From Romanomermis culicivorax (lineage: Eukaryota; Nematoda; Enoplea; Mermithida; Mermithidae), in contig CAWUHX010000224.1 in the NCBI GenBank assembly GCA_963922205.1, positions 124,001-188,000 on the forward strand: a stretch of 64,000 nt of DNA, given 5' to 3'. This document shows, one piece after another, positions 7,909 through 17,046 of the stretch. The position numbers and the translations under genes are program-made. Every line of letters begins with the position of its first letter. The first letter of the stretch is position 1. The notes under the pieces are model-generated. The model was given only the letters and a program-made list of their open reading frames with translations. It was not told the origin of the DNA and did not search any database.

Positions 7909-10900
7909 TTACGGGTCGGGGACCTCTGCATCAAGATGTGGGTCAATCAGATTCGGTGTAAAGTCCCGGCTTATTGAGGGATACAATAAGGGTGCCGAAT
8001 CTGTTGCCTGTGAAGTGGGAGGTGTATCCTCTGCTTCACTCGGTTGTTCAGGGGACACGTAAAGTCGAAGCTGGTTGACATGTACAGTGTCTTCCTGATC
8101 CATCTCGAGACGAAGTGTGACATTGGGATATGCCACACTTGTTACAAAATAGGGCCCATCGTAGATGGGCAGCAATTTAGGAGTGAGTCCACGTTTGCTG
8201 GAGGTGCGCAGTTTGAGCACCTGATCCCCTACTTTGTACGAGACATCATGTGCCTTCCGGTCGTACGACCGTGCGTAGGCTTCCTGTGCTTTCTCAATCC
8301 GACTCTGGATTAGGGTTAACGCATTCGTGAAATGACGTTTGACCTCCATATCATATGAGGAAACATTAATGATATGGGCCGGAGGGTTGAATGAGAGCGC
8401 GGCATCAACAGGGAGCATGGGTGTGCGACCGTACATGAGTTCAAAGGGTGAGTACCCCGTTGACTCATTCATGCTGATATTGACGGCAAACACAGCGTAT
8501 GGTAGGTGTTCATCCCAATCGGTATGTCCTTGATGAACATACATACGTAGCCGTGTGGCTAGCGTCTGATTAGCTCGTTCCACTTCGCCGTTGGTCATCG
8601 GGTGATAGGCGGTAGAGTGGATTTTCTTCGTTGCGCAGATCGCAGTGATTTCAGTCATCAGTTTTGATGTGAAATCAGTGCCATGATCTGACTGAAGAAT
8701 CTGCGGTGCCCCGTGCCGGCAGACAATTTGCGTTACAAACAGCCGGGCTATGGTGTGCGCAGTGATGTCCGGAGTAGCGAAAGCCTCGACCCATTTCGTA
8801 AAGTAGTCGATAAAGACTACGATGAAACGGTTGCCAGCTTGGCTAGTGGTCATTGGTCCCATACAGTCGACACCTACCCGGTGAAACGGTCCCGTGATGG
8901 TGATAGGTTTCAGGGTCGCAGTGGTTTTCTGTCGAGCGGGCTTATTCCGTTGGCAAAGATCACACCGCTGACAGAAGGACTTGACATCCCGACTGAGGGA
9001 GGGCCAGTGGTATCTGCGAGCAATGAGCCGCGCAGTACGTTTAGCACCGAAGTGTCCAGCTAAGATGTCATCGTGATGAGCCCGGATAATGGTAGTAACC
9101 ATGGATCTGGGTATGACGATCTTATTGGACTCGCCTGTCCATTTCTGAAGAACGTTATCCAACAGATGGTAGCCTCGCACATCATTCTGGTCGCCCAGAG
9201 GCTTAAGAGAACGAATGATGTCGGCTAACTCCGGATCCTCCAGCTGAGCAGCGAAAAGGTCGGGGTGCTGCGCACCGACGGATATCTCGGCATAAGACTC
9301 TGATCGTACCGGGCGCTCCGCGCCAACAGTGATCTGTGCTGAATTACTTGAACGCGCCAGGTGCTGCACACCATCGGTCAAGGTCCTGGATCGCGCCAGG
9401 TGCTGCGCACCATCGGTGATCATCATAACGTGCCCCTCAGGTCTGTAGAGGGGAGTATCATCAATACTCTGACTGATGAGGGAGTTAGGATCCGGCAGGC
9501 GTGATAATGCGTCAGCATTACCATTAGACTGACCTTTTCGCGGCCGAATTGTCAGTTTGAATTCGGCGAGCGCGAGTCCCCACCGAGCGATCCGAGCAGA
9601 GGGGTTAGGCTTCTCCAACACTGCTTTGACCGCGGTATGGTCAGTCTGAATGACCACCTCGTGCTGGAAGAGGTATGGTCGAAAGTGCTTGACGAAATGG
9701 ACAACAGCGAGAGTCTCCAGTTCTGTAATGGAGTAGTTTTTCTCGGCCGCTGTTAACCCTCGGCTGGCGTACGCGACAGGATGGTCGTATCCATTTTCGT
9801 CTAACTGGCTAAGAACCGCTCCTATCCCCGAAATACTCGCATCAGTTTGAAGGATAAAGGATTTCGAAAAGTCCGGATGGCGCAGGATAGGAGGGTTGGT
9901 CAGCAGGCCGCGGAGTTCATCGAACGCCTCCTGCTGAGGTTTTGACCACTGGAAAGTAGTTTCCTTCCGTAAGAGCTTGGTGAGTGGCTCGCTGAGCCGG
10001 GCACAACCAGGGATGAAACGCCTGTAGTAAGACACGAGGCCTAGGAAGGACTTGATGTCTTTGGCGTTTTGTGGAATGGGTAGGTTTTGGACGGCGGCCA
10101 GCTTGGCTTGGTCAGGTTCTAGGCCGCTCTGTGAGATGCGATAGCCTAGGTATTCTACCTCTGAGTGCGAGAATTTGCACTTGCTCAGTCTGAGCTTCAT
10201 TCCACCCCGGCGAAGACGGGCGAACACATCTGCCAGGCGCTCAAGCATTTGGGTGTGAGAGTTCCCGAACACCAAAATGTCGTCGAGATAAGTCAGAACC
10301 GTGCGCCATTGGATTCCAGTAAGGAGGAGGTCCATAAGGCGTTGAAATGTCCCTGGCGCGTTGCATAAACCGAAAGGCAAGTAATTGAATTCGTAAAGTC
10401 CAATCGGCGTATTAAAAGCCGTCTTTTCCTTATCGGCCTCGGCAATCGGGATTGACCAATAAGCGTTAGCCTGGTCAAGGGTAGTGAAATATTTCATACC
10501 CTTGAGTGTGTCGAGAATGTCATCTATAGGAGGGAGAGGGTAGACATCCTTTTTCGTGACCTCGTTAAGACCACAAAAGTCAACACACATACGGTGAGAA
10601 CCCTTTTTCTTGCGCACCAGGACAGTATTAGTAGCCCACGGAGACGTGCTCGGCCGAATAATACCTTTCTCCTGGAGCGCCTTGACCTCTTGCATGATGA
10701 GATCCTTTTCCTTAGGTGAGGACCGGTAAGGGAAACGGCGGACTGGGCGGGCATTGCCCGTGCTGATTTCGTGCTGGACGAGATCAGTGGAACCTGTGTC
10801 CTTTTCATCAAGGGCATAGAGGTCGGTGTATGCAACCAGCAGATCGAGTAAGGCTGCCCGGTCCCGAGGGGAGATGTCCGGTGAGATTACAGCGTTGGCT

Positions 10901-15306: not shown

Positions 15307-17046
15307 ACCTGAAGAAGAAGGTAGTATACCTGACAAATTCATGGGCTCGACCTGGTCGAGGACTTCCGTAGCCGAATCCGTGGGGATCGAAGGCGGTGGT
15401 CCTGGAGGGACGATGCGGGCCGGTGGCGCCAAAGACGTCGTATTCGCGGCTGGAGCTGGCTCGGCAGTCTTAATTTTAGGAATGCGATACGATGCGAGGA
15501 TGTTAGCGTGGCCAACAAACTGCGGTGTCGTCGAGGGGTCCAGAGTGACCGGCATCGCATACTTTGGTGGTGGTGGCAGCGGTATGTCCGATACGTTTAT
15601 CGGTACGGGTACCTGGGCTGCTTGGACCACTGAAAATCCAATACTGATTACGCAGACAGGATAACACTGTTGTGAAGAATCTGTCAGGTGTTCAGCAAGT
15701 GCCTCATCATCCAGGTCAAGAGGATCTGGATGAGGAGGGCCATCGGTAGCCCCAACGGCGTTGTTGCGGCGTATGGGCTGCCGATATTGGTTTCCTATCC
15801 CGTTGGGAGGGTGATAACCATTTCTTTGATGATACACATTTGTCCCCTGGGAAGAATAACCAGTATCTTGGTAGACATTCTCACCCGTGTTTGCCGGATT
15901 GCGCTGCGGACAGGCAGTTGATCGGTGCACTCGCACTTGACGACAATGAGGGCATGGCCTATCACATCGGTCCGTGGGGTGGGCACGTGTACGGCAAAAA
16001 TAACAGCGACCACCGTTAGCGGCGTTGTTACCGGGAGCGGCACCGGTGGGACGCTGGGCCCGGCAGTCGGCGTCGCTATGTGTACATAGTCCGTGGAAGG
16101 AGCACGTTTGAAGGTGTTCTCCCGACGAGCGTCGCCCGGCGGACTGATTCGGTGTCGACGGCTGTGGAGGCGGCGTCTGTTGAATTGGCGCGGGTGCACG
16201 TTGCTGGGCCGTGAGCTTCGCTACGTGGGCCGTGAGCTTGGCCATTTCCTGTTTCAAGCGGCGAACCTCATCGGCGGAGGATGACGACGTTGGAGCGTTG
16301 CTCTGACGACCGTTTGCGCTTCTGTTAGGCATTTCGGGATTATATCCGGCGTGTTTAGGTTCTGAAGAGAGAACGGCGTTAGATGGAGCAGTGTACCGGA
16401 TCTCGTCCCGAAAGATTTGGGATTCTGCGTAACAGGCTGAATTGAGTGTCTCTTCAAGAGTAGTGAACTCCCTAAACTTGATACTATCTCGGAGGACCGG
16501 CTTCAGTCCCCGCAGAAAGATAGGTTTGATGATAGAATCTCGGACATCCGTCGCGAGATCTGGATACGCTACCGTGGATAGTCTCTTGAGGTGCTCAAGG
16601 TAGACTATCGCGGACTCTGTCGGCTTCTGCAGTCGATCTTGGATCAGCTGCTGATGCAGGTCAGAGTCGCGCCCTACCGGAAAATCTCTCCGTAGAAAAG
16701 CCGTAAACTCTTCGTAGGGGGTAGGTATTGGAGTGCTGCTGCTAAAGTCCCGGTAGGAGGTGAGAGCAGGACCCGTGAGGCATGACTCCAGAAAGGCGAT
16801 TTTATACGCATGATCCATTTCGCTTACACCCTGGAGTGTAAAGAAACGAGTAAGATGCGACATAAAATCGGTGATAGACTCACCAAAAGCACCGGAGAAG
16901 GTGGGAGGGGCCATAAAGCTGGACACGGGAGGGTGCCTCCGACCATTCATGGCGTCTAACTTTTGGTTGAGGGGTCCAAGAGCATTCTCAAATGCTACCT
17001 GGACTTTGTTCTCGATCTGTGAAGGGAGATCAGCTTCCGACTTCAT
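14881..17046 (-). CDS. Gag polyprotein
   Basis: A 721-codon ORF beginning MKSEADLPSQ. Residues ~45-215 match the Ty3/gypsy retrotransposon Gag (capsid) domain, for example the ITDFMSHLTRFFTLQGV and LTGPALTSYRDF patches. A short coiled coil follows at ~258-282. Nucleocapsid-type zinc binding follows: CSFHGLCTHSDADC at 315-328, a CX2CX4HX4C knuckle at 348-361 and a CX2CX5HX4C knuckle at 365-379. These would package element RNA in the cytoplasm. After about residue 580 (near 15306) the translation turns Arg/Ser/His-rich, which suggests the true product shifts frame into the adjoining ORF. It lies about 3.7 kb from the 5' LTR. The ATG at 17046 is the first in frame before the capsid domain. Confidence 0.9.
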   Translation of the reverse strand: MKSEADLPSQIENKVQVAFENALGPLNQKLDAMNGRRHPPVSSFMAPPTFSGAFGESITDFMSHLTRFFTLQGVSEMDHAYKIAFLESCLTGPALTSYRDFSSSTPIPTPYEEFTAFLRRDFPVGRDSDLHQQLIQDRLQKPTESAIVYLEHLKRLSTVAYPDLATDVRDSIIKPIFLRGLKPVLRDSIKFREFTTLEETLNSACYAESQIFRDEIRYTAPSNAVLSSEPKHAGYNPEMPNRSANGRQSNAPTSSSSADEVRRLKQEMAKLTAHVAKLTAQQRAPAPIQQTPPPQPSTPNQSAGRRSSGEHLQTCSFHGLCTHSDADCRAQRPTGAAPGNNAANGGRCYFCRTRAHPTDRCDRPCPHCRQVRVHRSTACPQRNPANTGENVYQDTGYSSQGTNVYHQRNGYHPPNGIGNQYRQPIRRNNAVGATDGPPHPDPLDLDDEALAEHLTDSSQQCYPVCVISIGFSVVQAAQVPVPINVSDIPLPPPPKYAMPVTLDPSTTPQFVGHANILASYRIPKIKTAEPAPAANTTSLAPPARIVPPGPPPSIPTDSATEVLDQVEPMNLSGILPSSSGDPRVGTRNLSQSTTLSISCSQRHRPSKTRCWPSGQSTWPRNTRICRGLCSTSHRMSKRSRPPMSCLQHPSQCAPYDPTSPDGHSSSLPMGLSLSRPSRSSYWTGSHPRLQSMPSAEQSNRPVGSSCLLLPLHHRQQRLLLP

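Follow-up and report, generated by a model that had tools for sequence, protein, structure and literature searches.

A Ty3/gypsy-type element in a mermithid nematode with a gB-like glycoprotein between Gag and Pol and a proposed splice switch

We examined a 64,000-nucleotide stretch of the Romanomermis culicivorax genome (contig CAWUHX010000224.1, positions 124,001 to 188,000; the window, in whose coordinates all positions below are given) and found in it a complete long terminal repeat (LTR) element of 16.2 kb, on the minus strand at 5944-22150. We consider it moderately probable that this is one copy of a young, multi-copy Ty3/gypsy-type nematode element in which a class III envelope glycoprotein (Env) lies between Gag and Pol, and in which splicing chooses between Gag and Gag-Env-Pol. 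As read from Pfam matches and hydrophobicity, the order is gag, signal-like segment, glycoprotein ectodomain, transmembrane (TM) segment, protease (PR), reverse transcriptase (RT), RNase H (RH) and integrase (IN), and it recurs in five relatives that each hold it in a single open reading frame (ORF). This would add a new gene order to an already known class of element, together with the splice switch proposed here. The window copy has two ORFs on the minus strand, ORF1 (14881-17046, 721 amino acids) and ORF2 (7909-14823, 2304 amino acids). A preliminary description had placed a Ty3/gypsy-type element with this domain order at 7909..17046, with the glycoprotein upstream of PR in the frame of pol; the Pfam matches, the presence of both ORFs and the domain order of ORF2 bear this out. 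The element proved larger, with two LTRs and a 3.67-kb leader, and an 86-nt intron and a selected alternative frame in the linker had been missed.

The features of the window copy follow in 5' to 3' order of the element, each with its basis (aa, amino acids; slashes, splice boundaries). Frame 0 is the gag frame, frame 1 the one into which gag passes when the 86 nt are lost.

20714-22150, minus strand: 5' LTR, ends TGTCAC...GTGACA on the plus strand, ACAG flank (sequence)
17047-20713, minus strand: long leader ahead of gag, 3.67 kb, no coding assigned (sequence)
15330-17046, minus strand: gag main exon, Ty3_capsid at aa 57-206 (Pfam, codon signal)
15630-15884, minus strand: candidate in-frame 255-nt intron inside gag, CGG/GTGAGA...TTTTCAG/TGG (exactly absent in one copy, L092)
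15244-15329, minus strand: 86-nt intron, CAG/GTATAC...TTCACAG/CG, length 2 mod 3, open in frame 0 (exact losses)
14507-15243, minus strand: linker; frame 1 would be the Gag tail after splicing, stop TGA at 14509-14507; frame 0 leads into the glycoprotein (selection)
14881-14883, minus strand: frame-0 stop of the window copy, cutting the long frame into two ORFs (2 of 70 copies)
14377-14460, minus strand: internal signal-like hydrophobic segment, ORF2 aa 122-149 (hydrophobicity)
12844-14376, minus strand: class III (gB/chuvirus-like) ectodomain, ORF2 aa 150-660, PF24664 at aa 411-550 (Pfam, profile)
12742-12843, minus strand: TM segment, ORF2 aa 661-694 (hydrophobicity)
12229-12603, minus strand: PR1, protease-like, DTG and ILGLDF motifs, ORF2 aa 741-865 (motifs; Pfam below cut-off)
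11674-12228, minus strand: Ser/Arg-rich linker between the two protease domains, aa 866-1050 (sequence)
11323-11589, minus strand: PR2, gag-asp_proteas, ORF2 aa 1079-1167 (Pfam)
10135-10617, minus strand: RT, aa 1403-1563 (Pfam)
9559-9948, minus strand: RH (Pfam)
8599-9114, minus strand: IN, H2C2 then rve (Pfam)
5944-7390, minus strand: 3' LTR, ACAG flank forming a 4-bp target site duplication (sequence)

Glycoprotein, copies and relatives

The Pfam matches in the two ORFs were Ty3_capsid (E 2.3e-7), gag-asp_proteas (3.1e-7), RVT_1 (6.3e-15), RT_RNaseH (1.2e-36), Integrase_H2C2 (4.1e-22) and rve (1.1e-8). The PR-RT-RH-IN order, the TG...CA LTRs with a target duplication in the 4-6 bp range (here 4 bp) and the Ty3-type capsid are traits of Ty3/gypsy elements. 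Within aa 148-700 of ORF2 we counted a single TM-like segment, 9 N-glycosylation sequons and 18 cysteines, and the glycoprotein matched Monjiviricetes_fusion (PF24664, E 6.1e-15) and BDV_G (4.5e-5). When a 7-row profile of the window and six relatives was compared with the PDB, it found herpesvirus gB (best E 4.7e-9), from about mid-ectodomain to the TM segment; the top 51 of 56 PDB sequences listed at E up to 1 were gB-type by name, where ORF8, GP110 and BALF4 were counted as gB on our own assumption. A 3-row profile reached only E 0.013, the distant row P0008 helping the larger one. These matches support the view that the glycoprotein is a class III (gB-like) fusogen. P0008 itself (766 aa) is a free-standing glycoprotein relative, the nearest to gB by Pfam (E 1.5e-8), and its C-terminal tail has PSAP-like and YPSL strings, which we take to be late-domain-like.

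Further copies were sought in the whole genome (359 Mb, 595 contigs), whose nematode character is borne out by 50 matches to the cuticle collagen domain PF01484, every one above the cut-off, against zero in 14 control genomes. A glycoprotein 28-mer occurred at 477 places and the intact gag donor, as a 26-mer, at 416, each with up to 2 mismatches. The 75 best-scoring glycoprotein matches were 97-100% identical over the full piece, 74 of them without an internal stop, and the frame around the glycoprotein was open for at least 3090 codons in 48 of the 75, in keeping with the expectation that other copies retain the order without stops. Among the matches listed, the glycoprotein lay at the expected 2.2-2.3 kb in 19 of the first 24 gag-donor places (exact matches, counted by eye). 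The LTR pairs were nearly whole in eight of ten sampled copies, with 0, 0, 2, 2, 5, 7, 9 and 30 differences per about 1450 bases; of the other two, one was without a 3' LTR at the expected place and one had Ns in its 5' LTR. On its sequences, the element group is young and some insertions are very recent. Two same-direction copies at G000:C128:115829 and 131843 stand 16.0 kb apart, about one element length, and are possibly a tandem pair sharing one LTR.

Polymorphism was measured in 30 and 70 copies drawn from the 75 best protein matches, a choice by protein score that lowers nonsynonymous polymorphism (pN) relative to synonymous (pS). The glycoprotein as a whole and the linker in the 30-copy set were compared pairwise; for the ectodomain, the proteases and the 70-copy linker and gag segments, each variant was counted once against the commonest letter. 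The pN/pS of the glycoprotein was 0.078 in pairs of 30 copies and that of its ectodomain 0.084, values that show purifying selection on the glycoprotein in the copies. Directly behind the TM segment lies PR1, a second DTG protease-like segment, for which a PDB search gave no significant match. DTG was kept in 30 of 30 copies in PR1 and PR2 alike, and pN/pS was 0.15 in PR1, 0.09 in PR2 and 0.28 in the Ser/Arg-rich linker. The protease domain is duplicated between TM and RT (11323-12603), and it is perhaps triplicated in P0021, which has three protease-like motifs (residues about 1376, 1579 and 1785), one with a degenerate active site.

Searching with the glycoprotein region as part of the long ORF retrieved two proteins, P0003 (2797 aa) and P0004 (2847 aa). 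With pol as the query there were 2681 matches at E up to 1e-50, and among the matches listed PF24664 was present in 4 of 120 (P0021, P0037, P0042 and P0126). In each of five metagenomic relatives (P0003, P0004, P0021, P0042 and P0126) a single ORF leads from a gag-like start to IN, with the glycoprotein between; the N-terminal part of P0126 matches a zinc finger only, without a capsid model. The sequences of P0005, P0036 and P0037 are incomplete, yet have TM directly before PR. P0032 (1903 aa; 56% identical in pol) has gag and pol and, lying between gag and PR, two hydrophobic stretches; neither Pfam nor BLAST found a glycoprotein in it. It is a close relative and looks like an Env-loss derivative retaining membrane segments. 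Scans for glycoprotein relatives gave 82 pattern stretches in viral contigs and 21 in genome contigs, with no relatives in either. In an RT tree built solely from search matches, the six glycoprotein rows, P0032 and P0036 formed one clade (SH-aLRT 98), beside which P0126 took no resolved position. The glycoprotein tree agrees with it where resolved (window with P0021; P0003 with P0004).

Between the two LTRs of the window copy there are 11 mismatches in 1437 aligned bases, besides 10 gap positions, and 4-bp matching flanks were present in four of six other clean-ended copies (L005, L007, L013 and L025, not L002 and L010). GC content is about 0.48-0.55 in the element vs 0.32-0.41 in flanking DNA, and 520 bases separate the pol stop from the 3' LTR. 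Next to the 5' LTR the leader begins with TGGCGAGGCTGG, which may be the primer binding site. An intron in the leader was considered and rejected, since 11 leaders including the window's have no intron-sized gap (two 41-nt gaps), nor does the leader of the L092 copy (L095). Among 11 copies, leader variability is lowest at 17713-18313 (0.05-0.08 of sites vs 0.10-0.28 elsewhere before gag), possibly a packaging signal or a short ORF. Searches of the window found no Rfam family and no tRNA, and an SL1 RNA search found none in the host genome and also none in the controls.

The 86-nt intron and the two linker frames

The 86-nt interval was exactly absent at six genome places (L018, L061 and L091-L094), among them 2 of the 70 aligned copies. 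The intron-bearing copies nearest to these places were L017, L008, L024 and L010 (L010 for three, two of them only distantly); because four different copies are nearest, several separate losses are likely. L092 is also without the in-frame 255-nt GT-AG interval of gag, a gap present in BLAST and in the printed junction and absent from the MAFFT gap list. Earlier candidate introns of 65 and 56 nt were discarded, as the losses define 86 nt.

Loss of the 86 nt moves gag from frame 0 into frame 1, and the codon signal follows frame 0 as far as 15300 or so, then frame 1 until about 14510, and frame 0 again thereafter. In 30 copies, pN/pS across the linker (15243-14530) was 0.27 for frame 1 against 1.72 for frame 0. 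In 70 copies it was 0.49-0.50 in frame 0 of gag (15975-15331) and 0.28-0.50 by segment in frame 1 down to the stop at 14507, where frame 0 takes over. The final 120 or so codons of ORF1 and the initial 105 or so of ORF2 fall in the linker, where selection acts on the other frame. Frame 0 is open across 15975-14310 in 60 of 68 intron-bearing copies, without conservation of the amino acids it encodes. With the frame-1 protein taken as fixed, the complete absence of frame-0 stops had P up to 0.0002 by codon-usage resampling and P 0.011-0.027 with shuffled synonymous codons (three copies each). On this variation, use of both linker frames is the simplest interpretation, with frame 1 constrained in its amino acids and frame 0 kept free of stops.

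The preliminary description had given the element two ORFs. They are present in the window copy, because a frame-0 stop stands in its linker at 14883-14881, but are not the family pattern, since in the majority of the sampled copies an open frame continues from gag into the glycoprotein. A frame-shifting indel was rejected as the cause, as the linker is collinear with other copies; so was an always-removed second intron at 14770-14446, inside which frame 1 is selected down to 14508. A linker peptide comparison with the relatives gave one weak match, between the frame-1 peptide and P0021 (E 6e-4), in a stretch of low complexity. A 24-nt tandem-repeat unit at 14785-14808 is absent in 40 of 70 copies and divides the copies into two length classes, whose open frames measure about 3092 or 3100 codons.

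Proposed expression and its alternatives

Splicing probably sets the choice between Gag and Gag-Env-Pol. Unspliced RNA would serve as genome and as mRNA, and its translation through the retained intron would yield Gag-Env-Pol of about 3100 residues; in spliced RNA gag would pass into frame 1 and terminate with its stop at 14507, so that an 817-residue Gag would be made in abundance. The internal signal would send the ectodomain across the endoplasmic reticulum membrane, the TM segment would stop transfer, and PR-RT-RH-IN would remain as a cytosolic tail. Env and Pol could then enter the budding particle as a single molecule, in which the membrane-adjacent protease would free Pol and Gag. A type I membrane protein that carries Pol as its cytoplasmic tail would fit every relative with that region, TM standing directly before PR. 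For the wider proposal, that in this Ty3/gypsy lineage fusogen and Pol form one membrane-spanning polyprotein, so that Env incorporation is Pol packaging, and that retention of the intron in genomic RNA, by way of two overlapping frames, decides whether Gag or Gag-Env-Pol is made, we see roughly balanced chances.

Several observations weigh against the splice-switch reading. Taking copies from the 75 best protein matches biases openness and pN/pS toward intact copies, and the Pfam match of PR1 is weak. Frame-0 stops occur over 15975-14310 in 8 of 68 intron-bearing copies and within the linker in 6 of 70, the window copy included, whose stop is common to L007. Chance, passed on by descent, may account for part of the long open frame, as the shuffle test gave only P 0.01-0.03, and the exact intron loss could have spread by gene conversion. 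Finally, the 60 bases ahead of the glycoprotein are weakly constrained in every frame, which also fits a separate env-pol start.

Alternatively, Env-Pol could be made from its own spliced mRNA, joining an upstream donor in the leader or gag to an acceptor GTTTGTACAG/TTG at 14446, with Gag from the rest, like retroviral env. Frame-0 constraint is indeed sharp after 14446, with 2 nonsynonymous variants per 101 sites (14445-14310) vs 7 per 45 (14507-14447), and the acceptor-like string is identical in 65 of 70 copies. However, exact genomic junction matches with a non-T at position -5 numbered zero (one in four junctions would be missed), whereas loss of the 86-nt intron was seen six times; moreover, gag and env share a single unbroken ORF in five relatives, and the nearest frame-0 ATG before the signal is aa 53 of ORF2. 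We therefore regard a separate mRNA as unlikely, though the most credible of the alternatives. Ribosomal frameshifting, of which the +1 kind is known in Ty3, could instead carry gag into frame 1 by -1 and frame 1 into env-pol by +1 at the stop codon GAAATCTGAC, to make one fused protein including the selected linker peptide. Frame 1 is selected up to the stop (pN/pS 0.34 in 14650-14508), whose context is identical in 69 of 70 copies, with TGA in all 70. This scheme seems improbable to us, since the first frame change is already explained by the intron lost six times, two shifts of opposite sign would otherwise be required, and the identity is largely explained by the youth of the copies.

A third alternative takes the glycoprotein block for a one-off insertion or for an artefact of assembly. 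The preliminary description had cautioned that the block would be a one-off insertion if other copies lacked it or insertion scars flanked it; this alternative could also draw on the rarity of PF24664 among the Ty3/gypsy proteins listed. We reject it as having virtually no chance: the 477 places, the 48 of 75 long open frames, the listed donor places at the expected distance, relatives from other samples that keep the order and the low pN/pS all speak against it.

Comparison with known systems

In retroviruses and in retrotransposons that bear an Env, this protein is produced separately from Gag and Pol, with which it must then be united. If our reading is true, Env fused ahead of Pol would be a second solution to particle assembly, with a naturally membrane-tethered Pol, and the splice switch would be recorded in the genome as exact intron losses. 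The layout recurs in at least five relatives and, within one nematode, in more than 400 copies, and with it Ty3/gypsy would join the retroelements that acquired a gB/chuvirus-like fusogen. We found no description of a glycoprotein-before-pol layout in the open-licence papers searched, in line with the supposition of the preliminary description.

Herpesvirus gB and the chuvirus and bornavirus G proteins resemble the present glycoprotein in the profile match, PF24664 and BDV_G, but are free-standing and not joined to a polymerase. The errantiviruses (Drosophila gypsy and its kin) likewise combine Ty3/gypsy-type pol with Env. Their Env follows IN and comes from a spliced RNA, whereas the present glycoprotein precedes PR; the errantiviral Env is not known to be gB-like.

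Cer1 of C. elegans is also a nematode Ty3/gypsy element in which spliced and unspliced RNAs both matter and exons are cut from gag; its extra ORF lies after pol and is not an Env (PMC10309623). The mosquito Anakin elements are BEL/Pao elements with a chuvirus-like glycoprotein, and thus also LTR elements with a chuvirus/class III-type glycoprotein as Env (PMC7642597). They differ in their BEL/Pao pol, the present element being Ty3/gypsy-type with the glycoprotein before PR in the pol frame; in the window element no BEL/Pao-specific Pfam model matched at E up to 1, and RT_RNaseH, Integrase_H2C2 and Ty3_capsid were found instead. For Gypsy elements, another study reports no clear evidence of captured chuvirus-like glycoproteins (PMC10084718). 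The closest parallel in logic is EVADE, a Ty1/copia element of Arabidopsis, whose spliced RNA yields Gag only and whose unspliced RNA yields Gag-Pol (PMC8892269), as proposed here. EVADE belongs to another superfamily and is without Env, and its splicing is coupled to early polyadenylation, whereas here the 86-nt intron would change the reading frame.

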